DNA from: Limnomonas spitsbergensis
Lineage: Eukaryota; Chlorophyta; Chlorophyceae; Chlamydomonadales
Assembly: GCA_037349105.1 (NCBI GenBank)
Contig: JAYJMM010000042.1
Coordinates: 1,529,501-1,593,500, forward strand
Direction: 5' to 3'
DNA: 64,000 nucleotides
Below the pieces are notes generated by a model. That model had not been told where the DNA came from and made no database searches. It was given only the letters and a program-made list of their open reading frames with translations. A program made the position numbers and the translations under genes. Position 1 is the first letter of the stretch. Each line of letters begins with the position of its first letter. Positions 1,337 to 39,870 of this stretch are shown here, piece by piece.

Positions 1337-2514
1337 TGAAATGCGCTTTGCCCCTGACGCTCAAGTATAATGACTCGCAATGAGGGCCAGCTGCCCAGAC
1401 CCAGATCCATTTAATGAGGGCCACCTGCCCATAGCTAGCAATGTCTCGAACGTGTGATGAGTGTGACCTTGACCTTTGCCCCCTTTGGGGCCTTCCATGT
1501 TTTTTCTTCAATTTCGATTTACGGTTATAAGCCGTGGCCCATAACAAATTATATTTAGTAGAGCGATCTAGCAGCTAGCCTGAGACCGTACAGATTGCCA
1601 TTATGCTGAAGTGCATGAAGAAATCAGATACCGTTTTTAGTGTATATCGTTATAGAAGTACTGTCTAGATCTCCTCCCTGCAAACAGGGGGGCCCAAGAT
1701 GAAACATATAATCATCACCGGGATCATAAAGGTATCCATCTTCAATTACTTTTGGCGCTCTTGCGCAAACAATTGATGGCTATCTATTGTTTGATCCCGA
1801 TTGGGAATGCAGGATGAACGAAAACCGGGTAACATCAGCAATGATGTTTGATTTGTAAAGAAGATGAAATCGAATCTCACTTCTACCGTATGCCTGGCAG
1901 CATCCCCAAACAACCCATTGCCGCAAATTTCAGACCCTGTCATGCGGCTTATGTTATATGTACTAAGGAAACAGTGAATGGACAGAAGAGAAGATTATCG
2001 GTACTGATGAAAGTACCACAAATGTCATCTAGACTCCTGTTCAAAAAGTCATAACTGGATGCAAAACGGTAACGGACTTCCTTGGTGTAACCCTTATTGA
2101 GGCCTGCACATGGGCTGTGAGGATCCTGATCCCATCATGATTAGGACCTGGCGGCATGAAAGTGATGCCACCATAAGCCATTTAGGTAATGTGCACAGGG
2201 GCTTACTGGAGTCACTCGGTACGCACAGTAACGTTGGTGCCTGGTGTGCATTCTCTGGCATTGTCATTGATAACCAGTACTGTACGATGTACTGTATTGA
2301 GACATTGCATACCCATTTCGTGGATCCATGACCCACTGATGCGCCATGCTGTGCTTAACAGGTTGGTGGCCACATGAACTCGCTCTAAACATTGTTGGAG
2401 AATACCCGCCATGGCAGAGGAAAACTTGTATGCTCCCAGCCCAGGCTGAGAAAAATTACACATTCCAGAGGCAGAAAATAGTGGCTCAGAGGAGAGAGAT
2501 TGTCTGGTAAGAAG
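1337..2514. other. intergenic, no gene seen
   Basis: Only short open frames without domain signals or plausible splice structure are present. I see no RNA gene. The stretch separates the RING gene from the hairpin at 2515. Confidence 0.5.
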
Positions 2515-2658
2515 GGCGGTATGTGGCAAAACAGCAGGCAGGTGCATCGTTGACTTGAATTAACTTAGTCAATGACCTGACACCTCTGGGCCCTGCTCAA
2601 AAAGCTGACTTAATTCAAGTCAAAGATGCACCTGCCTGCTGATTTGCCACATACCGCC
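2515..2658. repeat. long near-perfect hairpin (inverted repeat)
   Basis: The left arm starting at 2515 (GGCGGTATGTGGCAAA) is matched by the reverse complement of the arm ending at 2658. Roughly 52 bp pair with two mismatches plus a frayed end, around a loop of about 35 nt. It could be a miniature inverted-repeat element, or the source of a long hairpin RNA of the kind used as miRNA precursors in green algae. It lies about 420 bp upstream of the eIF3m start codon. Confidence 0.8.
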
Positions 2659-3077
2659 TATCCAGTGATCGCCTGATTGAGGAAGGTCGTGGCATATCAG
2701 CGTATAGGGGTGTGCCATTGCTGCCCAACAACTGGAAGGGTCCCATGTGACGGGTTGGCGCTTGCAGTCAACGTGACTCCTAGGTGGCAGTTGGCAAAGG
2801 ATGAATGGAAACTGCTGCTACAAGCAGTGTGTAGCCCATGATCGGAAAATGGAAATTTCTGGATATCACTGACAAGAAATATCGGTAATGGCATTTCCCT
2901 CGCCCGACATCCCACCCCCCCGAACCAAACCTGAACCCTCGTTGTGTGCAGCCCCTGTACCCTGCCTCTGAATTGGCTCTCCTAGTCACCCGCATTTCCC
3001 ACGTCTAATCCTCACTGCCTCTCTCTATTTAGCCCCGCGCTTGAACAGGGCCAAGAAATATATTTGAAAAGGCCGAC

Positions 3078-9000: not shown

Positions 9001-9191
9001 TCCGAGGCGCAGTGTCGGTGACGCGCTGCACGATGCGCGCGTTCGGCCCAACGGAGTGGCGGGCGGTGCGCACACGCCTGGCCACGTGGCGGGAGTCGCT
9101 GGTCGCGGTGCAGGCGAACTTGGTGTCGAATAAGGCGGGGGCGGCCAGCGCCGGCGTGCCAGCCAGGGGCCAGCAAGCCATCCGAGTTTAA
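3078..9191 (+). CDS. eIF3m: eukaryotic translation initiation factor 3 subunit M (PCI domain), seven exons
   Basis: Exons are 3078-3164, 3220-3496, 4298-4641, 6407-6549, 7886-8007, 8337-8458 and 8892-9191 (stop TAA). All phases agree and the total is 1395 nt, 464 residues, somewhat longer than the roughly 400-420 I expect for plant homologues. The last exon carries the PCI/winged-helix C-terminus: EEQVELYVVRAIGAKLLEGK, then KIDQV, then FGPTEWRAVRTRLATWRESL, which lines up residue by residue with plant eIF3m. Exon 5 matches the conserved DLGELPAVRNLASDP block. The start ATG at 3078 gives MTIQIVETSEE, similar to the family N-terminus. eIF3m is a subunit of the PCI/MPN octamer of eIF3, which binds the 40S ribosome during cytoplasmic initiation. 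Oddities: exon 2 encodes about 20 residues that I cannot align (a small missed intron is possible), and intron 3 holds a seven-copy tandem array. Confidence 0.9.
5030..6165 (+). repeat. tandem array of 160-186-bp units inside eIF3m intron 3
   Basis: About seven copies share a core beginning GATGAGATACCAATCAAAC, then a CATGACCCC-type and CGTGGGCCTGATTTCA block, then ATCCGAGGTTTTGTG. The core recurs near 5076, 5250, 5426, 5612, 5797, 5957 and 6117. Spacing is 174-186 bp for the older copies and 160 bp for the last two, which are the most alike, so growth seems directional. No coding potential is conserved between copies. Confidence 0.85.
8247..8336 (+). repeat. duplicate of eIF3m exon 6 acceptor edge
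   Basis: The sequence CTTGTGCAG followed by CTTATCGGACCGCTGCGTTT repeats the authentic acceptor and exon start at 8331-8360 (CTTGTGTAG, CTTACCGGACAGCAGCC). Both copies read AYRTAA. Phase and the downstream match to eIF3m favour 8337 as the real exon start. The upstream copy is a pseudo-acceptor or alternative acceptor. Confidence 0.7.
8459..8700 (+). repeat. G-rich minisatellite in eIF3m intron 6
   Basis: Repeats of the form GACAGGATGAGGTGGGTGGA alternate with GGGGAGGAGGGG. The first unit overlaps the exon 6 donor (GATGAG/GTGGGT), so this is another array seeded at a splice donor. Long minus-strand open frames here are low-complexity artefacts. Confidence 0.65.
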
Positions 9192-19777: not shown

Positions 19778-20700
19778 GATGTCGGATAGACTGGGCTGGC
19801 AGAGTTTCTTTTTGCAGCCTCACCATGCTCGAGGGGGGGGTGCCTTTGGGCTGCTTGTGGCCCTTGCCAAGTCTGTGCTGGAGAAAGAAAGAAAGCTACG
19901 TCCTGTGGGGGGCGTGAGAGTTAAGGAAACAGCGCAGCCTGGGCCGAAGCCGCATCCGCGCCGTTCCCATGTCGTGTGCTGGAGACTACAGTGCAGTGTT
20001 ATTGTGGAGCCTGCGGGGATTTCTGCAGTGACTACCATGTCACATTTTCCACCGGTGTGTTTCACCTGAAATGGAAAGTCCTGTGCCCTTGGGGATGGGG
20101 GGAGGCAAGGTATATATATGTATTTTTTAGTGAAACAAGTGAAACAGGATGAAGGGGGGAGGCAGGGTCAGGAAGTGGGTGCGACACCTGGGATATGTCT
20201 AATGTTCTTAGCTGGCAGACGGAGGTGCTTTTGGCAGCCTCACCATGCTCGAGGGGGGAGCACGTTTGGGTTGCTTGTGGCCCTTGCCAGTTCTGCTCAG
20301 AAGACTGCGGTGCCATGTTATTGTGAAAGTCACAGGAATTTCTGCGATGACTACCGTTTCACATTTTCCACCACCCATGTTTCACTCATAATTGGAAAGT
20401 TCCGTGGCCCTTGGGAGGGGGGGGGAGGCAAGGTATATATTAATTTTCTTTTTAAGTGAAACATGATGAAAGGGGGAGAGTAAGGGAGTGGGTGCGACGC
20501 CCGGGAGATGTCTGATGTTCTAGGCTGGCAGACGGAGTTGCTTTGGCAGCCTCAGCATGCTCGAGGGGGGAGCGCGTTTGACCTGCTTGTGGCCCTTGCC
20601 AGTTCTGTGCTGAAGACTACGGTCCATTTCAATTGTGGTGACCATGGGATTTTTGCAGTGACTACCGTGACACATTTTCCACCCGCGGGTTTCACCTGTT
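19778..20700 (+). repeat. satellite of ~310-420-bp units (left of the retroelement)
   Basis: Units start near GATGTCTGATGTTCTAGGC with GGCAGACGGAG and continue through CTCACCATGCTCGAGGGGG, GCTTGTGGCCCTTGCCAG and TTTCACCTGTTTCA. Starts are near 19778, 20200 and 20510. The array resumes at 39368 after the retroelement, so the element inserted into it. Confidence 0.85.
20697..20700 (+). other. target-site duplication TGTT, left copy
   Basis: TGTT directly precedes the element's first bases TGTCGC and is repeated at 39368-39371 directly after its last bases GTGACA. Removing the element and one TGTT restores CACCTGTTTCACTCAG, which matches other satellite units. Confidence 0.85.
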
Positions 20701-21559
20701 TGTCGCACCATAAAGCAGTAACTGCAATACTATGGTAAATACCGTAAACTCCGGTCAGGACACCTTAGAGAGGTGTCCTCTACTCACAAACATGGTACAT
20801 CACCGTACACTCATGCTCCTTGTACTTCAGACAAGAGCTTGTTAACAAGATAACTGTATCTGGAAGTCCCTAACTGGATATCTCTGCCTAGAAGTCTCCG
20901 TCTCGTGGGTACCGCCCCTACTACTTTACTCGCGAGGTGCGCTTCAGGTCCGTGGCGGACTTCTTTCCTCACGGCAGTGATGGACGCCTACGGGCAGGCT
21001 CAGTGACTATTCACTGGCTGCGAGTGCTCTTCGAGTTAAGCGGCTGGTTGGTTATTTGTGTATATGGCAATTGACTTAGGGGCATAGGCCTTCTGGCCGT
21101 CTGGTCGCGATCCAGCAGGGCTATGTTAAGGGCACTTACCGCGTAACACGCGGAGAGACGGACGGGACGAGGCTGCGTACTTCTTCTTCTGCAGAGTCTC
21201 GTGTCTCTTACTGGGGTACTTGTCTCCAGCTAGTTCAGCGGAGGCTGAGCTAGTCTTGACTCGAGTTGAGGTACTGACTTATATGGAAGCTGCTGGTCTC
21301 AAAGACTGCCGGTGCTTGTTACAAATAGAGGTCTGTCCTTTAGAAAGGGACGAAGTAACTAGCCAAGGCAATTGCCGGGATACAGGGACCCGGCAGGCCC
21401 AATACAGAGTACGGTAGAACCTGTCAAACTAATCCTGCGTAAGCGGGTTTCTAGGTCTTAGCTCAAACACGGAGACTCCGCAGAGAAGCTGCGGAGTCAC
21501 CGATGACGCTAACTGCGGTCTAAACGGTTCTGTCACGTATACTGTAATATACTGTGACA
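20701..21559 (-). repeat. complete terminal repeat (AB), 859 bp, TGTC...GACA ends
   Basis: It begins TGTCGCACC and ends CTGTGACA, typical TG...CA LTR termini. It consists of block A (20701-20933) joined to block B (20934-21559) through the palindrome CTCGCGAG. A two-base spacer GC separates it from the next A block, making the palindrome GACAGCTGTC. Confidence 0.9.
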
Positions 21560-21561
21560 GC

Positions 21562-21794
21562 TGTCGCACCATAAAGCAGTAACTGCAATACTATGGTAAA
21601 TACCGTAAACTCCGGTCAGGACACCTTAGAGAGGTGTCCTCTACTCACAAACATGGTACATCACCGTACACTCATGCTCCTTGTACTTCAGACAAGAGCT
21701 TGTTAACAAGATAACTGTATCTGGAAGTCCCTAACTGGATATCTCTGCCTAGAAGTCTCCGTCTCGTGGGTACCGCCCCTACTACTTTACTCGC
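21562..21794 (-). repeat. terminal repeat block A, second copy
   Basis: This block matches 20701-20933 over 233 bp. It stops at CTCGC, where a C-rich tract (polypurine on the coding strand) and the element interior begin. Confidence 0.9.
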
Positions 21795-21808
21795 CCCCCG
21801 CTCCCCAG
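21795..21808 (-). promoter_or_regulatory. candidate polypurine tract for plus-strand cDNA priming
   Basis: On the coding strand the sequence CTGGGGAGCGGGGG directly abuts block A'. Retroelements place the polypurine tract immediately upstream of the 3' LTR, so this marks where reverse transcription would define the repeat edge. That edge is the A/B breakpoint, not the TGTC terminus. Confidence 0.6.
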
Positions 21809-21939
21809 CGTTAAGCCCTCCAGGCATGCGCGGGGAGCCGGAAAAAGGGGTGGTACTGAAATAAACTTCTGGAAAAATATGTACGTAGAAGCTCAAATCA
21901 TCATTAGCAAATATGCCAGGTTCTGGCCTTCTACCAAAC

Positions 21940-22016
21940 TGCCTGGTTCAGGCAATCTACGAATCCGCCTGGTTCAGGCATTCTGCGAATCCGCCTGGTT
22001 CAGGCATTCTGCAATT
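21940..22016 (-). repeat. 26-bp tandem repeat in the element's 3' untranslated region
   Basis: CGCCTGGTTCAGGCATTCTG is repeated about three times, plus a diverged copy, between the polyprotein stop and block A. Each unit contains the small palindrome GCCTGGTTCAGGC. Confidence 0.8.
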
Positions 22017-22526
22017 AGGAAAATAAAAAAAAATCAACCGAGTTCCAGCTGAAGCGCAATGCGCAGAATCCTACAAAGTCAAGCTGTTCAGCCCACTACT
22101 GGCTAGCAAACAGAGGAATTTCAAAGTGATAAGGTCAAGCTAAGAATAACCGCTGCTCTCGCCCCACTGCGCCATAGCCGCCTGGTCTTTAAAGGCCACA
22201 GAAAATGTGCGCCGTAGCAGCGTGATCTGCCCCCTGCTGTGCTATAATTGCTCGAGTTGACTAATTCTCCTCGCTCATCATTGTCATAACTTATGTACTA
22301 CTGTAGCCTTGTTGCTACGGTATTTGAGAAACAAATTTTCATGAAGCTGCCGTAACTCTACTCCTGCATCTTCCGTCTTCGGCCCGCTGGCTGCCGGCCC
22401 GCTGCCTACTGGGTACTAGGACGAGCCGCACTGCGTCTGCATTTCCGCTCTGTAGGTGCCTGCCCGCTCCTTGCCATGTACGGCGTGGGTGACGTCACGT
22501 GTTCAGCGGCCCTGCCGCTCCGGGCT

Positions 22527-25500
22527 TCAGGTCCCGGTAAAATCCTCAAGGGCTGACTCCTCTTCCTCCCTTGCTGCTTCTTTGGCCACCTTGGCCCTTC
22601 TTGTAACTGCTCTCGGGGTGACATTGGCCTCTCCCCGGCCAGTGGTGTACGAGATGTCATACAGCCCGTTCGCCATTGGTCTTGCGATGCCCCGCTCCAT
22701 TTGCCTTGTTGCTGGGTTGGTGGCCATGACTTCCACCTCAGGCCTGTCCATGACGTCAGCCTCCTGGGCTGTTCTGGCAGCCGCTCTGGCCGCTGGGCTC
22801 GGTCGCCCCTGGACCTGTAAACTGCGCTCCTCTGTGGGGAGCCCTGCTACTGCTGCGGGCTCAGCTCCCTTGTCTTCCGGCGTGCAGTGTGGGCACAACC
22901 ACTCGCCCTCAGGCACCTCCTCGAGTACTGGTACCAAGCAGTCCATGTGCCAACCTGTATTGCATGCATCACACAAAAGCATCACCTCTCCGCGATCGGG
23001 CAGCTGGCACACCTCGCATGACAGGCTTTTATTGGGTCTGGTTCCACTGAAATCAACCACTCCCCTGAGGTTGGGCAAGTGGCATGGAGAACAATTGACT
23101 GCATTCTCTGTAACTGTGAGGCCATCTGCCCCTTCCAGCACCAAAGTTCCCGTCGTCCCCAGTGTTTTTACCCTGAGGATCTCAGGCCTGGCCTTGGGAT
23201 CGAGGCTGCGTCGCTCTGACGAATACTTCACATACACGTAATCTCCCTCTGCAAAACGCCTGACCTGGGGAACGTACCCTCCCCCACGAATGCGTGCATA
23301 TCGCAGCTTGTCGCGGTGTTGCGCAATTTTGAGATGCTCACCCGCGACTGGCAGTGCCTCTTTGATCCTGGCCACCCTGGCCAAAAGCAGGTCTGCTGCC
23401 TCCTCTGCCGTTGCCACCTTGGCTGTGCTCCAGAGGTCCGCTCCCACTCTGGAAGGGAAGGTAGGTCTCTGTCCAAACAGCACCTCGTACGGCGCCATGC
23501 GCGTGGCCTGCTGCGGCGAGCATCGGAAGCCAAGGGCTACCCAGGGCACCATCTTGTCCCAGGACTCGTCGCTGCTGCCCTCCTCGCAGCACTTGCGCAG
23601 GCCTGCTTTGAGGGTCTGGACAGCTCTCTCCGAAAGCCCGTCTGCCTGGGGGTGGTTGGCAGAAGTGGTGCGATGGTCAATGAAGCAGTCCAGCAACATG
23701 TCCTGAAATTCACCCTGGAACTCTGTCCCCTGGTCTGTCACCACCTCTGCGCATCCCCCGAATCGTGCAACAACATTTTGAAAGAATGCCAAGGCCGTCA
23801 CATCAGACGCCTTGCTTGGAATGGGGATCAACTCCACCCATTTGGAGTAATGCTCCACACACACCATCACAAACCGATTGCCCCTGGAAGTGGTCGTGAA
23901 TGGACCACACAGGTCCACTCCCCACCGGAAAAACAACCCCTCAATGGGTAGCGGGTGCAGGTTGGGCTGTATGTGATTGAATGTGGACGCCCTGGCCCTG
24001 TCACACACACCGCATTCCTGCACCGCCTTCTTGACCGCTGCTCGAAGCCCCCGCCACCAATGCTGCTGCATGACCATGAAAGCCGTGCGGTGGCTGCCGA
24101 AATGGCCCGTACCTGCATGCGCTGTCTGGATCACTGCTAGCCTGTCCTCTGGCCTGGGCACCACACAACGTCTACCATCTGGCATGAGTCTCATCAGGAC
24201 TCCTCCCCTCTCTGATTCCCACTGGAATGGTGCTGCTCTGCGCTGTATTCTGGTCTGTTCTCCTAGCTCTGTTCCCTGGACATAAGTCTTCTCACGGAGA
24301 AACCTCAAGACGGGCTCATCTGCCCACACATCAACCCTAGCCGACGGTCCTGCGGGACAACCTGGCTGGTCCTTCTCACTCTCTATTTCCCTGGTTACTC
24401 TGATTTCAACATCAACCTGTGCCTCAGACGCGTTCCCACCTGGTTCCTGTGCCGCGTCGGCCCAGTCTGCCGCGGCGGATTCTCCCAGGCACTGTCTGTA
24501 TGACGCGGCCACTTCCCCGCTGCCAGAGCACGCGTCTCCTGCAGTGGCAAGGGCATAGTGGCTGGACATTAAAGTCGCCCCCAGCACTGGGTCCCTGTCC
24601 TGGCCTGGCAGCTTTGCCCTGCGTGTCAATTCTGCTGGCAAGATCTTAGCACACTCAAGTGCCACATTGAGCCATGCACTCAGTGCCCATGAATCCATGC
24701 ACCTGCCCAAGGCTGCCCGTCTGGCTGCCTCAGGGAAATCTGGGCGTGGCAATGTGGACCCCACAGCGTACCCCATGGCTCGCTCACGCTCGTTTGCGTT
24801 GGGCTCCTGCAAGTCCCCCATGGGCCTGTACACCATCCCATTTTGCCCGTTCCGGAAAGCATATGATGAGGGTGTGGCCATCAAACACGGCAGCACCTTC
24901 CTGGGTTGCCCTGTGACATTGATGCGGTACCCCCCATTGTCCGGACACGATACTACCTGGGCCTTGCTGCCCTTGTCCAGAATGTCGTCTACAATCCCCT
25001 CGTGGGGTCTGGTTGACGCACGAATCACAAATTCAATATCTGCTGCATGGGCGATATTCCCCCAATAGTTGCGGGTGCGGTGGGCGTAAGACCCCACCTG
25101 CGCTGCGTCAAACAACGCCGGTGTCCCTAGAATCCTGCACACTTCCTGAAAAGCCTCAACACTGGCCTTCTCACTCTTCTGATTCAATTGCATTGCTACA
25201 TTCTCAATTAGGTACGCTGGCGGCCTAGGACCCTGCAGGAACTGCAGAGTACCCAACAGCTTGACTAACGGGAAGAAAGACTTGCTTCTCTCTCCCGCGA
25301 GCCCCCGCCCCTTGCCAGCTGACGAAAGGTCCTGGCACTCCCAGCCTGCTACCATGAACCACTGGCGCCCCTCCTGGGCACCCGCCTCCTTGAGGTATTC
25401 TGCCGTAATGGCATACACATCTTGTGGCAACGCCCTGAAAGCCTTATCAAACGCTCTGACTGGGAGCAACTGGGGGAATCTCTTGTGCAACTGCAACAGG

Positions 25501-28500
25501 CGACCCCCTGCGATCTCTCTGACTTCCTCACTGATATCTGCATACAAGTACTGCACGACTGGGATACCTGCCCTGAGTACCATTTCCAGCCCTGAGCACA
25601 TACCTCCAAAAGGCTCGAAGAGGACGACTCCTTCGGTCTCCATGGCCCGCACAGCCCCACTTGACAGGCAAGCTGTATCCAGGCCTGCAAGGGAATGAGG
25701 GGGCGTCACCCGAGGCAAGTCAGCAAGAACATCACTGATCATTGCCCTGGATCGCTCCCTGCTGCTGAACGCCTGCTCTGCTGTACTGACAGGCTGCGCC
25801 TGTTCATCATCGTCAGTGGCGGCAGAGGATATCTCCTGCCCCACTGGTGCTGTCACGCAAGCTGCCTCTGCAGCTCGCAACATCTGTACTCTCCTTCTGC
25901 CCTCCTGCGCCATGCGCACTATCTGGTCTGCATGCCACTGGTTCACTCTGCCCAACCCTGTGAGCAAAGCTACTTGCTTCCCACTTGCCTCCTCCTTGGC
26001 TGCTGGCTCGGGCGCGACTGTATCAAGCCTGGCCCCTGTGCGGTCAACTGAGGATGGGAGGGGTGATCTGGACGGTATATCTGCATTCTGGTGGCATGCT
26101 CCTGAGCGGTGGACAATGGTAATGTCTAGCTCTTGAAGCATGAGAGCCCACCTAGCGTGCTGGCCTACCAACGTCTGGTTGTCCATGAGGTAAGTGAGCG
26201 GCTCATGGTCAGTGATGAGATGCACCTTGCACCCAAACAGCATGTGGCGGTATGTGCGTGCTGCATACACTGCGGCCAGCATCTCCCCCTGGAACGAGGA
26301 ATAGTTCCTCTCGCTCTTGTTCAGGGATCTGGATGTGCATGCCACCATATACTCCCGCCCGCTGTCATCACACTGCCCTAGCACTGCGCCTATGCCTTGC
26401 TTAGAGAAATCTGTGTACAATAAGAACGGCCTTGGCGGCCCCTTGCCGTCTGGTCCTGTCCCACTGTAATCTGGTCTGCGCAGGACTCTCCCGCCCTCGC
26501 ACATCTCTGTCTTAATCAACTGGAACGCCTGCGACTGCTCTGGCCCCCACACAAACGGGACCCCCTGGACCAGCAATGCGTTAATGCATGCTGCCTTTTT
26601 CGAGAAGTCCGGGACGTAGCACCGGTAGAAATTCAAGAATCCCATGACCTCCTGAATGTTTTTCACCGATGCGGGCTCTGGCAGCGCCATAACTGCTGCT
26701 ATCTTAGCAGCGTGTGGCGTGAGCCCCTTGGCCGACACATTGTGACCCAAGTACTCTACTGTTGCACACCCAAACAGGGACTTGTCGGGGTGCGCCCTTA
26801 ATCCTATACTGTGGAGCATGTCCAACATCAGCTCCACATGCCTGATGTGTTCTGCAGGTGTGTCACTGTACACTAGCAAATCGTCAATGAATGCTACGCA
26901 GAACGCACTCAGGCCTGCCCTGGCAATCTCTTCTTCCATCATACGCTGAAAGAAAGGAGGCCCGTTGCGCAGACCGAAATTGAGCTTTGTGTACATCCAC
27001 AGCTCAGGTCCCATCCAGAAAGCTGTCTTAGGCTGGTCCTCTACCTTTATAGGGATCTGCATGAACCCCGACCGGAGATCAACCTTGCTGAATATCTTGG
27101 CAGTGCCCAGGTTCTGAAAAATAGTCTCCATCCTGGGGATGGCAAATTCCTGCTTGGCCGTACGCAGGTTTAACCTGCGCATATCGTGCGCTATTCGATG
27201 GTCTGTCCACTCCCCAGTGTCAGCACTCTTCTTGGCTGCTACTACTGAGTTGGCCGCAAACTTGATAGGCCCCCCCTGGGGCACCTTGACTATGATGCCC
27301 GCCTCAATCATTGGCTGACACTTTTCCTTAAAAATTGCTGCTTTAGGCGGTGGCATATCCCTGGACTTCTGAAAGCACGAACTGACCTCGTCTTCTAAAG
27401 CCAGTGTAAACTCACCCTGCGTGCCGCAGTAGCCTGGTAGATCCTCCATGGAGTAAGCGAATGCTCCTTGGCGATCCCTGAGGCTCTGCTCCAGGCTCTC
27501 CTGCTGCTCCGCAGTGAAGTCGGGGTGCTTGCCCAGCAGCCATCCCTCCTTGGTCTTGACGTACTCTGCAGGTGGCTCCACTACTCCCCCCGGCTGAAAC
27601 ATGTCGATCACCACAGCCGCCTGCGGGTCGTCCACCGCGGGCAGCTCTTCCTCGCCAGTGGTGTTGCCGTTGTGCCACTTCTCCTGCTGGTTGCATGCGC
27701 CCCTCCCGCTGGTGTCCCTCACGGAGCTGACAGCCGGTGGGCGCAACCATCCAGACGACAGCTTTGCTGCTGCCTCCCTTCCAGAAACAAAAGCACCTTG
27801 GCCTGCTGTAAATCCTCCTCCTCGCACTCCTTGCCCGGTAGCTCGCGCCCCCGGCACACACACCGACAGCAGCAGCCATACCAGTATCAGCTGGAGCGCT
27901 CCCGTAAGGATCCCTTTAATTGCTGTACAGGTGAGGAGTCCTCTGCACGCTGTCGTCTTCCTCATGGGTTGCTGCGGTAACTGTTCTGCGGGCTGAACGC
28001 CTGGCTCTGCAATCTGCTCTGGCGGCTGCTGTCCTCTGGCCCACGTGATCTCCAGGTCTACCTGGCAGACCCTGAGTGGCAGGGCTGGGCAATCCAATCC
28101 TGGTCTGCTGCCTCGGTTCCTGTCCGCGGCCGCCCTCTGCGCCTTTCCTGCGCGTCTCCTGGCCTTCTTAGAATTCTTTCCCTGCAACTTGGCAGTGTCA
28201 GCCCAAAGTGCACTGGCCCTTGCTGGCCCTGCTCCTGGGATCTGTCCTGTGCTGCACTGTGCCATTCTCTCCTGCCTGTGGTTAGCGCGCTGCACGGCCG
28301 TACTGCTGCCTGCGCCCGCGTGCTCATCCTGCCCCCAGCCGCGTCGAATAGCGTCCTGCGCGCCGGCAACCCTGCTGGCGAGGTCCTCGCCCCTGCCGGT
28401 TTGGGCTTGTCTGCTGCGGCTGTCCGACGGCTGTTGGGTGCCCGCTCCTTCTGCTCTTCCCGTGTAGAGGGCTGATACTCTCTCCGTCAGCTCCTCCCGT

Positions 28501-31500
28501 AGCTCCCTGACCGCCCTGCTGTAACCTCCCATCCTGGGGTCCGGATCGGGCTGTGGTAGCATTTTAAGTCGAAACAGCAGGCTAGCCTCCTGGCCCGCCT
28601 CTTGCTGCCCCATTTCCTGCCTTCGCAGCACGTCCAGCTGATCGACAAAATTCCTGAGCACTGCGACCCAGCGCCTCGTGCTGTACGCCGCTGGGTCACC
28701 CCAAGGCCCCTGTGCCGCTGTCTGTGCTGGCTGGCTGATTTGGGGATATCCCGGGCGCCCATTGCTCGTCTTGTCTGCTGCTGCCCCCTCGGGCCTGCGA
28801 GCGTGCTGGTCTGCTGCCTGCTGAAGGCTGATCCCCGTTGCGACCTGGTTTGCCTCTTCCTCCAGTGTGATTCCGCTACCAAGCTCAATAGCGGCCCTCC
28901 TGCTTCTGCGCTCTTTCATTGCTGCCTGCTCCTGAAAGATGCCGCGCACCCACGCGCGCCTCAGCTGTGGCAGCTCTCCCACCATGCCGTACCTTGGACT
29001 TCCTGGTCCTGGGCCGCTGTCTGCTGGCACGTAGTTGCCCTCTGCATCCCGAGCCTCTGCTCTGGTGACGCTATCCTGGTCCGAGGGCCCGGCTCCTGCC
29101 TCGTGCCACTCCTCATCTGACTCGGTGATCTCAACCAGTGGTGGTGGACCCTCTGAAACGTCGTCGCTGAACTCCGGGGTCCTGCTATCTGAGTCCTCCG
29201 CGGGCGGTGTGCTGACAATGTCTAGGGCTGCCTGGGGCTCTGCCCGTCCCCTAGGCTCAGCTTCCAGTGCTGCTACCTCCAAGTCGTCCACATACTCCAA
29301 CAGCTCCCATGAGGCTGCCGCCGCCCCAAATGTTACAAATGCCGCCTGGGTCCATTCCGGCTCCTCATCCTGGACAGGGCCATCGGTGGCTGCTGCTGGC
29401 TCCTCTGCATCGGCGCCTCGCCTGCCCACCGGCCCATGTCCCCTACTCGGCTGGTTCCTCAAGTCCTCCAACTCCTCCTCGATGCCTACTTCCCCTGCCC
29501 CTCTGAACAGAGGGTGCAGCGTGCGCACCCCTGCTGGGTGCGCTTGTCTCCACAACTGCGTTGTTATGACGTCAGCCTGCCAATAGGGCAGCACGCTGCT
29601 GGCCCTGTTGTCGTGCCACGCCCTCCGCTCCTGACGCACCCACTGGTGCACATATGCTGCCAGGCGTTCTACTGCGAACGGTGAGCTCGCCAGCTCTTCC
29701 TCTCCTTCCCACATGGCTCCTGAAGCTGGCGACTGCTGTGGTCCGTAAGGCCATGTCGGACAGGCTGTTACCTCTGTAGGCGCCCACTGGTCCTCTACGC
29801 CCCACACATGCCGCATGGCCGCTGATCGCTGTCCTGGGAGCAGGACCCTCTGCAGCGCCATTAGCATGAGCGTCCACACTGTTGGGTCTGCTCCCCTAGC
29901 GTAGGTATAGGCATGGAACTCCGCCTCGTCTACTGACGCGCACTTAGTGACGGCCACGTCCTGCTGGTGCCTAGCAAACAGGTAGACGGGCATATCATCG
30001 TGAGTCGCGTGCATGTGGATCCATGCCGATGAAACGGGCAACTCCTCATCAGCCATCTCCTCATAGTAGTAAGTTACTAGCTGTTGGACTGGAATGGCTG
30101 CCCTGGCGTCCCCTGGCGCTGGCCCCCACGGCACTGCTTGTCCTGCGACCGTCCTGGGGATGACGATGGACGCCTCGATGGTCGCCTCACACCGCCCTGG
30201 CCTGCCTGGGTGACACAGCCCTGCCCTCACTGGGGCCTGCTCTGTTGTTTCCACAAATCTCCCGAACTCGCCCATGGCTTGGACTGGCACATAAAATGCG
30301 CGGTCTCTGAGGGCTGGGTGCCCCATCAGCTCACGGACACAATCCATCGCCCACGGCGTGCGCATGAATCCTGGCTGCGCGCCCTGCCACATCCCCTCGG
30401 CTGGCGCAATGTCTGGCATGTCCGGGTGCGCCCAGCATGCTGCATCCACCGCTGTGATGCCTGCTGCAATGGCGAGACTCACCATCTCGCTAACGCAGTA
30501 TGCATAGATGGGGTGCCGCGACCATCCCCTCTGCATGTAATCTGCTATATTTGTGCTGGGCCGGATGTATCCTTTGAGAGCAGCGCCCAGCATGACAGCT
30601 GTCACTGCGTCCCACGGGCAAATCATCCTGGCAACTGCCTGCATGGCTGCTGCCCTGTCCACACATGTCTGCTCTCCGCCGTCCAGGAGCCTATGGTTCT
30701 GTAACCGACATGGCCCGTCCCTGCACTCCCCTGGCATAGTCAGCATGGCCCCGGAGGTGGACGCCTCTGGCATCTCTTCCCCCAGGCGGAAGTACTGCAC
30801 AAAGGGCTCGCCTGCTGGCAGCGACTGCTGAAACGGCTGTATGTAGATGCGTTCTCTGCTGTAGGACCTGTCTCTGCTGAAGGACTGGTCAAGCTGCCTG
30901 TCCTCGCCCCGTGCGTCAGACCTCCCTTCCCTCTCGCTGCCGTGCTGCGTCTCTCCGTCCTCGTCGATTCCTCCCCACGCATTGCACCGAGAGCTGGTGC
31001 CTTTATGGGTCCTAACGGGCCCCGCCCGAGCGTCCAGCTGGCTCCCTGCTGCGGTCCCTCTGGCTGCTGGGAGTCGCGACCCCGCTCTGTGTGGCTCCTC
31101 TGTCTCGGCGGCTGCTCCCGCTGCCCCTCTGCCGGTGTCTTGATTGCCCTCCGGGGTACCTGGACATAATACGCCGAACGCTCTCTCATGCACGGGTGAG
31201 GGTTCCTGAGGCTCATATCTGTCTGCCAAAAAGTTGGACCCCGAATCGGTCTCCCACCCGTCGACGTTGTGCTGGGGTACTGCCTCCCGCTCACGTCTCT
31301 CAAACTCATCCCACTGCTCATCATACCGGTCCCATTCACTGTCTAGGAACCTCTGCATCAGATTAGGCCATCCTACACACGGAGCTGGGCACCCCCTCCT
31401 CTGGAGATCCTTCAAGAACTCCAACGCATGTGTGACGGATCTGGCCGACCCTGCAGGCATAGTCCCATAATGGTTCATGGCTAACGCCTCTACAGCCATC

Positions 31501-34500
31501 GCCCAGTGGTTTACCTGACTGGCTACCTGCCCTTCTGGCACCCTCTGAGGGGCCACCTGAACTGGTCCTGCCTGACTGACCTCGGCCTGGTAGGCGTCTC
31601 TGTCCTGGCTAATTTCCATGTGGCCTGTCATGAAGCACGTGTGGCCTCCTGTCCCCTCCCACCTTGGTCTCTCGCCCTCCGGTGGTTCCTGTCGCGCTGG
31701 CGGTTCTGGCCACGCGCTGGGGCCTGCTGCCCCCTGCTGGAAGTCCCTTGCACTGGGAGTTCCCATGGCGGTATCGAAGGTCCTACGCCTGCTGTCCATG
31801 GGCATCCCCTGGCCCCTGCCTGGGCCCCAGGCTCCATAGCCCCGCGCTGGGCCTGCTGGTGCCCCTGGCCTGTCGCCTGTCGGCCCGGCCTGCTCCGGGT
31901 TGGTGCACTCGTTGGCAAAGTGCCCCGGCTGATTGCACTTGAAGCACAATCCACCATGGCGCGGTCCCAGGTGACGCCTAGGCTCTGCCGCCCCGCTGCC
32001 CTCTGCCAGGGTTCTGTTCGTTGGCCCGGGGCCTGGGCCTCTCTGGTGCTCCTGCCCCTGCCTGTAAGGCCTGGCAACCTCAGCATGGTGCCGTTCCCTG
32101 GATCTGCCCCTGGGCTGGTCCCTGCTTGGTGACCGCTGTCTGCGGTCCCTGCTCCTTTCCTCGCTGTTGCTGCGCCTCCCTGCGCCCTGCCGCTGGGTCC
32201 TGGCTGCCGGCGTTGGCACCGCCCCTTGGCGCTCCTCACTGATGGCCCTTTGCACGCTTCTGCTGCGCCGTCGTAGCCTTCTGTCCCCTGAGCCACTCTC
32301 GTCGCTGCTAGAAGGACTGCGCTTCTTCGGCTCCTCCACGCCTGGATGCTCGTTGTCCACGTCTGGTAGCGGGGACGGAGTCGCCATCATTGCCCTGACG
32401 CACCCCGCCAACTCTGGGTCTGTTTCGAATGGGAGCGGCTGCCCGTGGTTTGGCGGGCCCCCCAAGTGCTGTAGTCCCAGGGCCTCCTGCAGCTCGTTCA
32501 GCTCCTCTGAACGCAGGATGTACTCTCGCTGGACCGTTGTCATGACCTGCTGACCATCCGTGATGACCTTCCACCCGGCCAGCTGGCCTTTCAGGTAATC
32601 CACAATTTCCGCTGACTGTTTCCACATTTGCCGCTCTCTCCATCTCAGAGCCTTTTTCAGCCCGTTGACTTGCCCTGCCAGCCTGTGGATTTGCCTGTCT
32701 TGTGGGCTGGTCCCTGGCTCTGGAACCTGCTCTGCGCTGCAATCTTCCTCCTCCTCTGCTTCCTGCGCCTCATCTTCGCTGTTGCTGGCTGATTGCGCGG
32801 GGGCCCTTGCCGCCCCTGGCTTTCCCTGCCCCTGCTGCTGTTGCGCCTGCCTATCCTTGCCGTTGCCGGCCTGCTGCACTCTAGGTCCTGCCACCTGTGG
32901 TTGCTTTTGCAGCTGCTGCTGTTGCTGCTGCTGCTCTCCCCTGCTGCGCGTTGAAGTTGCCTGTGCAGCTCTATCGGCTGCCGCTGTGCCGTATCCCCTC
33001 CTCTGCGCTGCAGGCGGCCCTGCCTGCTCCGCAGGCGCTGTTTCGGGTGTCCTTGAAAAGTCCTGAATCCTCCTCTCGCACTCCTCCACCGAGTGCTTGT
33101 CTGGTTTTCCGCACAAGGCGCACGGGTAGGCGGGGCATGCTGGCATGAAGTCTCTGATCGCCCTCTTCTCAACGTCAGAGAGTTCTGCGGCTCTGCGCGC
33201 TCTTGCCATTTCCTCTGCGGTTGGCGCTGCGGCCTCTGCCACTGCCGCCTCGACTGGTACCAGCCTGCGCCTTTGTAGCCTGGAGTTTGGCTCGCTGCTG
33301 GGTCCTGCGCCCTGCTCGGTCCTCATAGCGGCACCTGCGCGTGTGGCCATGGAATGCTTTAAGAGCTGTTCGTGCTCTGTTTCAACTGTTGCAGCTGGCC
33401 AGCCCTCTCTTTCTGCGAATCCGCACTGAATTCCAGCCCATGCCACTGCTGCTGCCTGGTACCCCCCTGCTGGAGATGCCCGCACGAGTGGCAGCGTAAG
33501 GTCCTTGACCCCTTGCGCTCTCTGTGCGCCCTCTCTGGGTCGTAAGGTCAGCCTCCCTGCTGCCTCTAAAACCCCGCTATACTTGAGGAACTCTGGGTTC
33601 CCTACCAAGTGCTCATATGCATCCGGCGGTGTCTTAACGACCCTGACCACCGTTGGCTCCATAATGGCATTGGGCCCTCCGTATCCATACACCACATAAA
33701 TGAACAGCACTCCATACAAATCTGCCCCTGCATTGTCTGTGGTACGTATCTTCTCGTCTGTACGCACCAGCTCTGCCCCCATGGCAACTAATTGCTCTGC
33801 AATATTGACGGTGATGACATGGCACGTGCATGCGGAGTCCATGAGTGCTTTCTGAGCCACCAGGACCTTCCCATTTACCATAAGTCCCACACACTGCTCC
33901 AGGTTGCTTCTGTCATTTTTGAAATACTGCAGCTTGGGTGCAGCTGTCACCATTCTACCCTCTGGCCTGGTGTTACTGGTCTCACCCCTGTGGCCGGAGT
34001 TATCTGCTCCCATGGGCATCGTGGTGAAAGACAGCGCTGAAAGCCTCTCGTTCAGCTTGAACACCTGTAGGCGGATGTCAGACATATCGTCAGCAAGTTT
34101 ACTCAATACCAGCCTCTTTGCCCCCTTCTTGGAGGGAGGTTCCACGAATCCTGGCACTGGTTCCTCCTCCTGCAAAGGTTCTGGCATAAACGACTTAGGA
34201 CGGGCGTTATGAACCGCCTGTTTGAAACCTGCAGGCTTGGGTACCAGCCCAACCTGCGTCATGAGTGCTACGGACTCGCTGAGCATCTCTGCCATGGTCT
34301 GGTGCCATCCTTCAGGCTCAGCCTGCCCCGTTGCATTGCTGAGATGCGACACGTGGGCTGCCTGCTGCACCTGACGTCCCTGGCCAGGCCCAGGCCTAGG
34401 ATACTGTCTGTTGTTCTGATTCCTGTCATACGGCCTGCCTGCCGCCTGTCCCTGCTGCGGCCTTGGCGGCAGGGGATACTGCTGTTGCTGCGGATACTGC

Positions 34501-37500
34501 TGTTGCTGCGGATACTGCTGTTGCTGCGGATACTGCTGTTGCGGCTGTCTGGCCGGTCCAGGTGTGATGTCTGTAACCAGGGGCATAGGTCTGCGCTCAT
34601 CCCTGGCCCTGGGCGCCCTGCAATCCCTGGCGAGGTGCGACGTACTACCGCACTGGTAGCATGCCTTGGCTGCGCTTGAGCCACCCTCAGCGTTGTAATT
34701 TGCCGCCCCTGCTTGGTCCGCCCAGGCAACTCCTCTGGGTTTACCCTCCATCCGCGCCTGTGGTACTGCTGCTGAGCCTGTGGGGTGCACAATTCCATCA
34801 AGGCGTGTTCGCATCTCCCACTGTCCTGCTCTCTCTCTCCTGCCCCTGCTGGGCTGTGCCTCTCCCTGGCCAGGCCCGCTGTTGGTTATCTGCCTGAAGC
34901 CGGTACCTCCCAGGTCACCCATTTCCAGGGCAAACCTCTCCCACAGCACCACCTGCTGCGTGAGTACTGCGATTTGGTCTTCATCACTCATGCTGAGGTA
35001 CCCTGGCACTGTCATAACAAACTTGCTCAGCTTGGCTCTAGCAACTGCTGGCAGTCCGTCATGGAACATGCGCGAGACCGAGTGGCTTCTGCCGAAGTGA
35101 TCTACTGCATCCCTTGAGATCTGCAGCAACTCTGCTGTTGTCAGCACTCTGTGGGCAAATGCCTCCACCGTCTCCTCTGGCTTGACATCTGGGTCTAGAG
35201 TAGTCTTTACTCCTAACCTGAGGTTGGTGATGGCCGTCCTCTCCTCTGAAGTCGGCTTTCCCACCTCCTCCTGGACCACCCTGATCCACAACGTGAGTAG
35301 CGAAGCTTCGCACCCCTGCTGCTCCGCTGGGGCTATCCACTGCTGTCCGATCCGCTCCACCTCTCTGGCAATTCTGTTTCCTGCGTGGGGCGCTGCCCTG
35401 ATGGCTGCCATCAGCGGCCTCATGCTGGCAGGCTTGCTGTCCCACAGCTTGACCAGCGACTTGATCAGCAACGTCATAGCTGACGGCGACTGGCATGATC
35501 CAGCTATTTCACCTGCCACCACGGCCAATGCTGGCTGGTCATCTGACATTGCCAACCTGTTGTGCGATCCCCAGTACCCACACGTCTGGCAATACTTTCT
35601 GGCTGCAACCGCTCCTGGGTGTGACATATCCAGGACTGGTACGTTGCCTTGGATGGCTGGGATCTTGGCTACCTTGGCTACCCCTGCCAGCTGCAATACC
35701 ATCTGTTGCTGCAGCTGCAGGTTCACCCTCGCCTGCTCCCGCTCGAGCCTTTTCATTTCCTGGTCGCTGGACTCCTGTCTGGCCCCCGACCTGCGTCTGT
35801 CCGCTCCTCCTGGTCCCGAATCTACTGACTCTGACCGCGACCCTGGTCCTCCACTGCCGCCCCTCGATGGGCTGCGGCCTGAATGATACCTGTCATGTCT
35901 GTTATAATCCTCATCCTGATCGTGAGCGCCTTGTGATGGCTGTCTGCCCGCTCTGCCTGCTGAGCTTTTACTCCCTTCGGGTGGCGGGCGTTCTGATTCG
36001 CTTCTGCCTGGTCTGCTGTCAGATCCAGGCCTTCGAGACTGTGCTCCACCGGGTTCTGCCTGTCCCCTGGGCAACTCCTGGTTCTGCTGGCTTGGCTGTT
36101 CCCTGCCCTCTGCCTGTCCTCTGGGCGGCTCTTGGCTGTGCTGGTGAGGCTGTTCCCTGGAGTATGCCTGCCCCCTGGGCGGCTCCTGGCTCTGCCGACC
36201 TGGCTGCGTTCCGCCTGTGTAATTCCTGGCATAGGAATCAGACTGTGTTTCCTCTCTGGCCTCCTGTATTCTTGGACCACTGCTCCGTGCGCTGCCCGCA
36301 GGCTCATTCCTCCTGGCTCCCCTTGCTGCGCCTGACTGCCTGTTCCTTAGGAATTCCTTGATGTAATCCACCTGGGTTTCCTGGTATGCGTTCTCTCTGT
36401 CCTCGACTATGCGCAGCAACTCATAAGACTCTTGCCTGCTTGCTCTGCGTGTTGCTGTGCTGTGCTCTGCCATCCTGGCGAGTGATCGGCTAGTCAATTC
36501 CGCCCTTTCGCTGGCGGCTGGACTGCTGGCTCTGGGCGCTTCCCTGCCCCTTGGCCGTCCTCTGAGGCTGGGCTCGCTGCTGACCTCGAAAGCTGCAGAT
36601 CTGAGTGTTGGTGTTGGCGCGGCTCCCGCCTGCTGCTGCCACCTTTGCACCTCCCTGCGCCCCTCAGGCCGCTGCGCCTCTGTTTCAAATCCTTCCCACG
36701 CCTGGTCCTCCTCATCCTCTGGTTCTGATCCAGGTTCCTCCTGGTCACCCGTGACCTCGTTGCACCATTCATCTGCAAAGGCTTTAACGGCCCTGGCTGC
36801 TTCGTGTCCCGCCCTTCCCTTGGATACCTGTCCAAGGGCGGCTAACAGTATCGCCCTGTCCAACCCTGTGTGGGGGATACCTAACATGGCCTTTGTTGCC
36901 CACCCCCTCAGATGATGGGCCTTGAACTCCTCAATGGCTGTGACCTGGTCCTGGAAATGCAAGAACGTCCTGGAGCACACTTGCTTCCACAGGTCTGTTG
37001 CCCACTGCACAATTCCTGCCCACCCAATTGGCCCTTCCGACTCCTCATTGCCGCACACTACTCCCCCAGCCTCGGAGCGCTCTGGCTCTCTTTGCATCTG
37101 GCTGCTAGATCCCTCCTTGGACGTTTGCGCAGGTCTGTTTGCACTGGGTGGAAAACTGGACAGCGGTGTGCCGAAGACTGTGGATCCAGCTCCTCTTCTA
37201 ACCAGTGCCTTGCGCGGCTGCGGCTGCTGCACGGGACGCAGTTCTGCTGTCGTCTGCTGCCCCTGCTTGTTCTGAGCTGGGTCTGGCTGTTCTTCCTCGG
37301 ATATTAGGTCAGCCCAAGGCTCCCCTACCGGCTCAACTGATTTCTCCTTTTCCTTGCCTGCCTGCGAGCTCTGTCTGCCCGCTGCTGGCTGGGGCTCAGC
37401 TTCCTCGTGCTTGACCTCTGCAGGCACAATCCTGGCCCCATCTCCCTCCGTCTTTATTCGAGGTTTGTCTGTGCCGGTTTTATCACAGCCTGCAAACTTG

Positions 37501-38069: not shown

Positions 38070-38741
38070 CCCCTACAAAACCTGCTAACGTTTAGGCTTC
38101 TGCTCCTTATCCTTACTGCAACCTGGTGAGGATCTGCTAGTCAAGGCTGGACGGCAGGTACAGCAATTGTGCGCGATAGGCCTTGCCCTCTGCTTTTATG
38201 CTCACTAATATTTGTATCTGGCGGAATCCTCCTTCGCCCTTTTTAGTCCCTTCCCACCTTTGCTGGCTGGGCTGCCTCTAGCTGGCACACGTCCCTTGCA
38301 GATGTCTCGCCTCCAGGCGGATATATCCTCTTGCGCTGTGTCAGTTCCTCTCTGACACCTGCGGGGATCCTTTGGTACACCACAAAATTTTAAACTTGGA
38401 TGATCTGTCCACAAGTTTACTTCTGTCAATGATGAATGATTGGATCCACCTGATCTCAATCTGCAGTCATACAGGAATTATCTGCTGGGTGTATAAATCC
38501 ACAGCCAGATCCTCAAGCCTCTCCTGGACTCAACACTAAGTTGCCGCTCTCAGTGATTCTCAGGGCTTAACTTGGCACTTCTCTCTATGGAGGTTACCAC
38601 AGCAAAGTGCAGTTCAAATGCTGTCCAAGGTCGTTTGCATGCAAACAAATTTCCAACTTCGCTGCACAAGCACCTTTAGCAGGAATTGGCAAATCAGGCT
38701 GATCAGGCTAGATCCACTTCGTCCCTTTCTAAAGGACACGC
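38070..38741 (-). other. retroelement 5' leader
   Basis: About 670 nt lie between the candidate primer site and the polyprotein start, with no conserved frame. It has no counterpart at the other end of the internal region, arguing against hidden LTRs of a nested element. Confidence 0.6.
38716..38738 (-). promoter_or_regulatory. candidate self-primer binding site (23-nt complement of the terminal repeat)
   Basis: The 23 nt at 38716-38738 are the perfect reverse complement of 39142-39164 in block B (and of 21334-21356). In the transcript the block B copy comes first and its complement lies just inside the B' edge, the position of a primer binding site. Tf1-type elements prime from their own RNA this way. 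No TGG-type tRNA complement starts at this edge. Confidence 0.5.
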
Positions 38742-39367
38742 GAGGTGCGCTTCAGGTCCGTGGCGGACTTCTTTCCTCACGGCAGTGATGGACGCCTACG
38801 GGCAGGCTCAGTGACTATTCACTGGCTGCGAGTGCTCTTCGAGTTAAGCGGCTGGTTGGTTATTTGTGTATATGGCAATTGACTTAGGGGCATAGGCCTT
38901 CTGGCCGTCTGGTCGCGATCCAGCAGGGCTATGTTAAGGGCACTTACCGCGTAACACGCGGAGAGACGGACGGGACGAGGCTGCGTACTTCTTCTTCTGC
39001 AGAGTCTCGTGTCTCTTACTGGGGTACTTGTCTCCAGCTAGTTCAGCGGAGGCTGAGCTAGTCTTGACTCGAGTTGAGGTACTGACTTATATGGAAGCTG
39101 CTGGTCTCAAAGACTGCCGGTGCTTGTTACAAATAGAGGTCTGTCCTTTAGAAAGGGACGAAGTAACTAGCCAAGGCAATTGCCGGGATACAGGGACCCG
39201 GCAGGCCCAATACAGAGTACGGTAGAACCTGTCAAACTAATCCTGCGTAAGCGGGTTTCTAGGTCTTAGCTCAAACACGGAGACTCCGCAGAGAAGCTGC
39301 GGAGTCACCGATGACGCTAACTGCGGTCTAAACGGTTCTGTCACGTATACTGTAATATACTGTGACA
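38742..39367 (-). repeat. terminal repeat block B, second copy
   Basis: This block matches 20934-21559 over 626 bp and ends CTGTGACA at the TGTT duplication. Three bases (CGC) just before it also match the end of block A, so the split has a 3-bp overlap. A 65-codon open frame in both B copies is not conserved evidence of a gene. Confidence 0.9.
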
Positions 39368-39870
39368 TGTTTCACTCAGAAATAGAAAGTCCTGTGCCTT
39401 TGGGGGAGGGGGGGAGGCAAGGTATGTATTTATTTTCTTTTTTAGTGAAACAAGTGAAACAGGATTAAGGGGGGAGGGAGGTTCAGGGAGTGGGTGCGAC
39501 GCCCGGGATATGTCTGATGGTCTAGGCTGGCAGACGGAGGTGCTTTCAGCAGCCTCACCATGCTCGAGGGGGGAGGGTGTTTGGGCTACTTGTGGCCCTT
39601 GCTAGTACTGTGCAGAAGACTGCGATGCCATGTTATTGTGAAACTCACAGGAATTTCTGCGATGACTACCGTTTCACATTTTCCACCACCCATGTTTCGC
39701 CTGTTTCAATCAGAATTGGAAAGTTCCGTGGCCCTTGGGGGAGGGGGGGAGGCAAGGTATATACATTTTTTCTTTTTTTAGTGAAACAAGTGAAACATGA
39801 TGAAGGGGGGAGGGAGGGACGGGAAGTGGGTGCGACGCCCCGGTGGCGGGGCCCTAGGATGGGCGCCGAG
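39368..39870 (+). repeat. satellite, continued right of the retroelement
   Basis: The interrupted unit resumes at TGTTTCACTCAG, followed by a further unit starting near 39508. It carries GGCAGACGGAGG, CTCACCATGCTCGAGGGGG and TTAGTGAAACAAGTGAAAC, as on the left side. Confidence 0.85.

Follow-up and report, generated by a model that had tools for sequence, protein, structure and literature searches.

Why should a retrotransposon carry a DNA-methylating enzyme within its own polyprotein? The question is raised by a 64,000-nucleotide stretch of the Limnomonas spitsbergensis genome (contig JAYJMM010000042.1, positions 1,529,501 to 1,593,500; hereafter the window), in which a preliminary description had noticed a cytosine-5 (C5) DNA methyltransferase embedded in a retroelement polyprotein. 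To the following answer we give about an even chance: the locus is a young, full-length element of the Ty3/Gypsy type, and its DNMT3-type Pol domain is predicted to methylate the CG sites of the element's own complementary DNA (cDNA) before integration.

The element covers 18,667 bp (20701-39367), ends in TGTC...GACA and has its sense strand on the minus strand, as do all features located below unless stated otherwise. It holds a single stop-free open reading frame (ORF) of 5,181 amino acids (22527-38072, first ATG at 38030). The methyltransferase had been correctly located by the preliminary description, its coding strand being the minus strand. Along the ORF follow a gag-like region with CCHC motifs, reverse transcriptase (RT), RNase H, the C5-cytosine methyltransferase, a DDE integrase and a PHD finger. 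Pfam, run on the ORF cut into six abutting pieces, recognised RVT_1 (1.6e-22; 26736-27200, with the FIDD motif at 26862-26891), RT_RNaseH (1.2e-30; 26130-26435), the zinc-binding Integrase_H2C2 (3.1e-11; 23988-24149), the integrase core rve (4.7e-10; 23649-23924, including D4720 and D4780, with E4815 just outside at 23628-23630) and, past the integrase, PHD (1.5e-10; 22884-23018). The methyltransferase, identified by Pfam, profile and fold match, occupies residues 4140-4480 (24633-25655). This order agrees with the domain having been placed between RNase H and integrase of a Ty3-type polyprotein; the RT-RNase H-integrase sequence with a DDE core is that of Ty3/Gypsy Pol with the methyltransferase inserted, the Ty3/Gypsy assignment of the RT being that of Pfam matches only. 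An assembly chimera was ruled out, since no break interrupts the ORF and other copies and homologues repeatedly show the same fusion.

What kind of methyltransferase is it? The profile search against C5-methyltransferase families that had been proposed as a check matched both DNA_methylase (PF00145; 1.4e-06, 28.4 bits, cut-off 22) and DNMT3A, the latter among PDB sequences at 8.2e-07 with the domain alone and at 1.1e-22 with a nine-sequence profile. The predicted structure (predicted local distance difference test, pLDDT, 94.9) has DNMT3A/3B as its best fold match, so that fold and profile agree on the DNMT3 family among C5 methyltransferases. The motifs EPFGGMCSG (25590-25616), CQDLSSAGKG (25308-25337), LIENVAM (25191-25211), AHRTRNYWGN (25056-25085) and GRCMDSWALSAWL (24669-24707) stand in the canonical order I-IV-VI-VIII-X. 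Of the proposed DNMT3/DRM branch, the DNMT3 part is upheld by profile and fold, and the DRM part was discarded because the motif order is unrearranged, that of DRM being rearranged; in DRM2 chains the best-matching stretch pairs the C-terminal part with the start of the profile. The 50 VIA rows listed hold no DRM, which excludes nothing. Identity to the catalytic domains of DNMT3A and DNMT3B is approximately 24%. Unlike these enzymes, the window element has no adjoining ADD or PWWP domain, and its motif IV, ECQDLS with the catalytic Cys (25323-25340), reads ECQ for PCN, the usual Pro-Cys being replaced by Glu-Cys.

This alteration, together with a weak match to DNMT2-type tRNA methyltransferases, might be taken to mean that the domain methylates the element's RNA or an RNA:DNA hybrid and so helps translation, packaging or reverse transcription; RNA methylation has been proposed for SymbioLINE-Dnmt (PMC5890265). 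The profile scores far better on DNMT3A than on DNMT2-type chains (0.00034 at best), and we consider an RNA substrate quite improbable. A viral or bacterial origin of the gene, rather than one from eukaryotic DNMT3, seems very unlikely. Acquisition of DNMT genes from viruses and bacteria is described (PMC12344493), and viral relatives of the domain score up to 68.5 bits; DNMT3A reaches 81.8 bits, above all 113 matching viral or bacterial ORFs in 112 loci. The first scans of bacterial/archaeal and viral contig collections gave no relative, and the second gave 32 bacterial/archaeal and 80 viral loci (80 kept of 289), scored as ORFs only, with best segments of 25-55% identity over short stretches. 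In the tree described below DNMT3A, the sole DNMT3 reference, is also the nearest outgroup of the element domains (99/84), though on a branch of 2.1.

Is the domain retained because it is used? Our search of the same genome (260 Mb, 124 contigs) yielded at least 118 scored matches to the domain, with 96-100% identity; there were 1,045 first-look candidates, and the 118, like the counts of repeats, are lower bounds. Internal stops are absent from 115 of the 118, and 28 lie in open frames of at least 5,000 amino acids. The fusion, which might have proved to be confined to this copy, thus recurs in these matches and in 52 of 57 homologues. Selection was estimated on the region from RT to the end of the ORF in 20 long-frame copies, from which four with broken frames (L145, L146, L147 and L151) were removed. 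Pairwise counts over the remaining 16 copies and the window, comparisons that are not independent of one another, gave a ratio of non-synonymous to synonymous differences (pN/pS) of 0.087 for the methyltransferase (codon bootstrap 0.052-0.132), 0.040 for RT, 0.036 for RNase H, 0.021 for integrase, 0.248 for the PHD finger, and 0.219 and 0.287 for the flanking linkers. When the four broken-frame copies were included, the values were 0.407 (RT and RNase H), 0.090 (methyltransferase) and 0.082 (integrase). The ratio of 0.087 therefore indicates purifying selection, and it is by purifying selection between copies that the methyltransferase domain is maintained.

How far does this arrangement extend beyond one genome? 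The domain search found 57 homologous proteins and the profile search 53 more. In 52 of the 57 the methyltransferase has RNase H and/or integrase as a neighbour (RNase H in 41, integrase in 50, both in 39), and a PHD finger follows the integrase in 46. In the other five (P0027, P0056-P0058 and P0053, the last from Closterium sp. NIES-68) it comes after the gag/protease region, with a Pfam aspartyl protease in P0027, P0053 and P0056. P0060 (43% identity, its integrase-side tail judged by eye) carries the record label Chrzof1, which we take to be Chromochloris zofingiensis; P0073 and P0079 of Klebsormidium nitens are 34-36% identical to the window domain. In P0044 the integrase is followed by a chromodomain as well as a PHD finger.

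From 111 profile-matching proteins, 24 spanning fewer than 230 profile positions were dropped, and the resulting tree of 94 rows comprises 86 element domains, DNMT3A, six viral rows and one bacterial row. All 86 element domains unite (100/99), apart from the other eight rows. The tree gives no support to the fully separate lineage of capture that had been proposed, since the window, K. nitens and Closterium domains fall in this one clade. A capture independent of the charophyte one is accordingly not supported, and separateness from the charophyte elements is limited to sub-clade and place in Pol. With one DNMT3 reference in the tree, host DNMT3 genes could still break up the element clade. 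Of the 123 matches of a PF00145 search of the same genome, 12 loci were read, and none was recognisable as a host DNMT3; the only one to match DNMT3A was a copy of the element.

Clade I (59 rows, 97/85) includes the window and Chrzof1 domains and is labelled RNase H-methyltransferase-integrase in 52 rows, protease-methyltransferase-RT in one (P0027, nested at 98/92) and unplaced in six. Clade II (27 rows, 100/86), with K. nitens and Closterium, has 15 rows labelled protease-methyltransferase-RT and 12 unplaced. Two changes of domain place account for the 69 labelled rows, among which P0060 was labelled by eye; the query pieces for the labels came from P0027, P0053, P0056, P0057, P0079, P0093 and P0100, so that for these seven proteins the label is in part a match to themselves. 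In P0027 the short RT piece is only distantly similar to clade I RT (29% to the window RT, E 0.003), and the methyltransferase domain may therefore have passed from one Gypsy backbone to another; for the RT piece of P0079 a match to RT regions of clade I was obtained (5.6e-09). Among 33 fairly complete elements (440 and 245 of 528 pairs usable), mean pairwise identity was 0.45 for the methyltransferase, 0.43 for RT, 0.54 for RNase H, 0.47 for integrase, 0.44 for the PHD finger and 0.22 for linkers. Distances in the domain track those in RT plus RNase H (r 0.76) and in integrase (r 0.74), the latter two correlating at 0.71.

The Glu before the catalytic Cys bears on a further alternative, namely that the domain has little or no catalytic activity and serves as a DNA- or S-adenosylmethionine-binding scaffold of the Pol complex. 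The residue is Glu in 52, Pro in six and Ser in one of the 59 clade I rows, and Pro in 24 of the 27 of clade II; this Glu/Pro switch is conserved. The Cys is present in 24 of 27 clade II rows, two having Gly and P0079 lacking that stretch, and the domain of the K. nitens element KnitGypsy-Dnmt3 was inactive in a yeast assay (de Mendoza et al. 2018, PMC5890265). A scaffold would require neither the Cys, kept in 21 of 21 own-genome copies compared and in 59 of 59 clade I rows, nor the Glu of motif VI and the second Arg of motif VIII, each kept in 59 of 59 clade I rows (the first Arg of motif VIII in 58 of 59). We regard a scaffold as quite unlikely.

The neighbourhood of the integrase raises a stronger competitor, in which the methyltransferase has the insertion site or host chromatin as its target in place of the cDNA and, guided by the integrase and PHD finger, silences the new copy and its surroundings. 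The domain abuts the integrase, and the PHD finger follows the integrase in most homologues. With a PHD-type reader next to a catalytic domain of DNMT3 type, the arrangement is reminiscent of the ADD domain of DNMT3A. Yet a protease would likely separate the Pol enzymes, and in 28 of the 111 proteins the domain is instead labelled as lying after the protease and/or before RT. Action at the insertion site is, in our view, unlikely. De novo methylation of the element's own cDNA is plausible and would be the most likely function of the domain; methylation of this kind has already been proposed for known retroelement cases (PMC5890265).

The nearest known element is KnitGypsy-Dnmt3, of which P0073 and P0079 are presumably copies. 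In PMC5890265 it is described as a Gypsy Pol polyprotein with a DNMT3-type domain, under purifying selection (ratio of non-synonymous to synonymous substitutions, Ka/Ks, < 0.2) and, in the legend of Fig. 4, with repeats of DIRS structure accompanying Gypsy domains. The window element shares the Gypsy Pol with a DNMT3-type domain, and the methyltransferases form one clade. It differs in that the domain lies between RNase H and integrase, whereas in K. nitens, as read from P0079 (KFL_000540020) alone, it follows the protease and precedes RT; in its PHD finger; in its likely chlorophyte host; and in motif IV, ECQ against PCQ in P0073. SymbioDIRS-Dnmt3 and SymbioLINE-Dnmt of dinoflagellates, likened here by description and not by sequence, are also retroelements with a cytosine methyltransferase, but on tyrosine-recombinase or LINE backbones in place of a DDE integrase; the SymbioDIRS-Dnmt3 domains conferred de novo CG methylation in yeast (PMC5890265). 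A general statement in PMC6338049 mentions DAM- or DCM-encoding Ty3/Gypsy and DIRS elements in green algae. In literature that included few subscription papers and no supplements, we found no description of a Gypsy element from a chlorophyte whose cytosine methyltransferase lies between RNase H and integrase. By its sequence, then, the element is of the known Gypsy-Dnmt3 kind and differs in the place of the domain in Pol and in the catalytic motif ECQ.

How would such an element replicate? Its ends are unusual. The insertion is flanked by the target-site duplication TGTT (20697-20700 and 39368-39371), and an unbroken satellite unit near 39697 carries the same sequence without the element. Repeat A occurs as an outer (20701-20933) and an inner copy (21562-21794), identical over 233/233 positions; repeat B occurs as a 3' copy (20931-21559, overlapping A by CGC) and a 5' copy (38739-39367), identical over 629/629. 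The sense order is hence B-coding-A-GC-B-A, and from the identity of the copies the insertion is therefore recent. The A-gc-B junction is the palindrome GACAGCTGTC (21556-21565), a candidate site for cutting of a circle by the integrase. A polypurine-tract-like GGGGAGCGGGGG abuts inner A (21795-21806), and a primer-site-like 23 nucleotides abut B (38716-38738), complementary at every position to a stretch within B (39142-39164 in the 5' copy, also 21334-21356 in the 3' copy). This complementarity may be compared with at most 10 nucleotides reached by 400 random internal stretches, and the folded leader pairs the site with its complement inside B (z -6.2).

The ends of 17 further copies, picked from the 118 for long frames, were examined. 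Fifteen have the same order, which rules out a one-off rearrangement. All 17 have the junction GCGACA-GC-TGTCAC, and in all of them the identical primer site lies immediately next to B and the purine tract immediately next to A. Exact 4-bp target duplications, mostly differing from one another, flank 14 of the 15 standard-order copies. The two B repeats of one copy are 98.4-100% identical (100% in 11 of 17), while B of these copies differs from the window B by up to approximately 5%; because within-copy repeats are near-identical though copies differ, A-GC-B appears to be renewed each round like a long terminal repeat (LTR). A target duplication in the 4-6 bp range and termini in TG...CA are those of Ty3/Gypsy, but plain direct LTRs at both ends are not found, with B at one end and A-gc-B-A at the other. 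The B-coding-A-B-A order and split direct repeats recall DIRS/PAT-like elements, from which the window element differs by its DDE integrase, TG...CA ends and 4-bp duplications; Pfam of the whole ORF (E up to 0.1) gave rve and no phage-integrase match, that is, no tyrosine recombinase. By these sequence features it is Gypsy by Pol, DIRS-like by repeats, and by methyltransferase a member of the green-lineage Gypsy-Dnmt3 group. The DIRS-like repeats of KnitGypsy-Dnmt3 would fit split repeats as a trait of the whole group.

The repeat order and palindromic junction suggest a circular cDNA reopened by the DDE integrase. Reverse transcription would be self-primed, the 23-nucleotide site pairing with the stretch inside B. 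A primer site after B and a purine tract before A would generate LTRs that read A-GC-B and do not themselves end in TG...CA; those ends lie at the internal palindrome. The cDNA ends, sharing CGC, could then join B to A into a circle, which the integrase would cut at one palindrome, GACA-GC-TGTC, producing the observed split-repeat order. In the particle the methyltransferase would work alongside RT, RNase H and integrase as one of the Pol enzymes, on finished double-stranded cDNA, after reverse transcription and before integration. Its mark might let the new copy resemble methylated host DNA or set a heritable quiet state limiting harm to the host, and the PHD finger on the integrase might read the H3 tail and steer insertion. 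In its widest form this would mean that a widespread green-lineage group replicates through a self-primed, methylated circle, with a DNMT3-type enzyme whose Glu-Cys active site is re-tuned and a DDE integrase that bears a histone-reading PHD finger and opens the palindrome, copies entering chromatin with a host-like mark and DIRS-style split repeats. In this widest form we advance it tentatively, as somewhat less likely than not; the generality of the repeat order across further copies strengthens it.

Was the DNA in fact methylated? Between copies, 3,884 of 11,562 pairwise transitions fall in CpG context, such sites making up 16% of C/G sites, and the element copies were probably CG-methylated in the past, by host or element. 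In a host gene of the window resembling eIF3m the CpG value is 0.96 in exons, attained by 0 of 248 equal-length ORF blocks, and 0.41 in introns; codon-boundary CpG is 0.57 and CA 1.87. These values fit a CG-methylated genome and do not indicate the methylating agent.

Several points weigh against methylation of the cDNA and the circular route. The excess of CpG transitions may stem from host methylation, and the element's CpG of 0.59 lies inside the window's range of 0.41-0.78 (sixteen 4-kb blocks including the element), so that no element-specific depletion is seen. Enzymatic activity is predicted from sequence, and with Glu for Pro before the Cys in most of clade I the chemistry may differ. 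The domain is less tightly constrained than RT, RNase H and integrase (0.087 against 0.02-0.04). Its KnitGypsy-Dnmt3 counterpart gave no methylation in yeast, a result that its authors call inconclusive, human DNMT3B having failed too (PMC5890265). The circle is read from the repeat structure, and two of the 17 copies lack a normal outer A: in C37 it is absent from the stretch fetched, and in C95 (L177) it is reversed beside a second copy on the other strand. One of the 15 duplications is mismatched at one base (GGCA/AGCA). Finally, relatives were retrieved with the methyltransferase domain or profile as query, and domain-less relatives were not searched for.

What had been an oddity of one charophyte and of dinoflagellates becomes a large conserved element group with at least 118 copies in one genome. 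Since selection preserves the methyltransferase, methylation of some target probably belongs to the life cycle, which runs counter to the usual view of transposons fleeing methylation. The constant repeat order and palindromic GC junction offer a checkable route for a DDE integrase on a circular substrate, one that would account for the DIRS-like repeats noted in K. nitens, and the Chrzof1 relative points to a culturable alga.

Other features of the polyprotein include a first CCHC zinc knuckle in the gag-like region (34620-34661; 17.5 bits, below the Pfam cut-off of 20.8), a protease-like motif LMDSACTCH (33819-33845), seen by eye and without a Pfam match, and a second CCHC knuckle (31905-31946; PF00098, 4e-06). 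After the latter, more than 1,300 residues (approximately 2060-3400; 27840-31900) have no Pfam match, and a hydrophobic, signal-peptide-like stretch, LTGALQLILVWLLLSVCVPGARA (27840-27908), lies directly ahead of RT. A second GACAGCTGTC occurs inside the ORF at 30594. The model of the PHD finger, made from one sequence, had a pLDDT of 46.8 and was not used. The own-genome PF00145 search also returned many open frames of exactly 2,253 amino acids whose match is confined to profile positions 61-113 and which might represent another element family with a methyltransferase. It also gave two single-frame cytosine methylases (L162 and L163), their tails HMG-box-like by eye, which might stem from a large virus that became endogenous.

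The eIF3m-like gene (6407-9191, plus strand, four exons, PCI/eIF3m match) was the one match of a host-gene scan of 29 window ORFs and is the only sure host gene. Its protein had nine matches, the sole named one being from Edaphochlamys debaryana (48% over 84%), which makes the chlorophyte-like host of the preliminary description likely. The window had no match in Rfam at the gathering threshold and none in a tRNA scan. The insertion is surrounded by a satellite of approximately 312-bp units (20019-20696 and 39368-39843). A 36-bp unit is repeated in 34.7 tandem copies at 52530-53779, open in several frames on both strands, and TTTAGGG-like telomere-type repeats occur inside the contig at 54802-55256 and 56875-56925.

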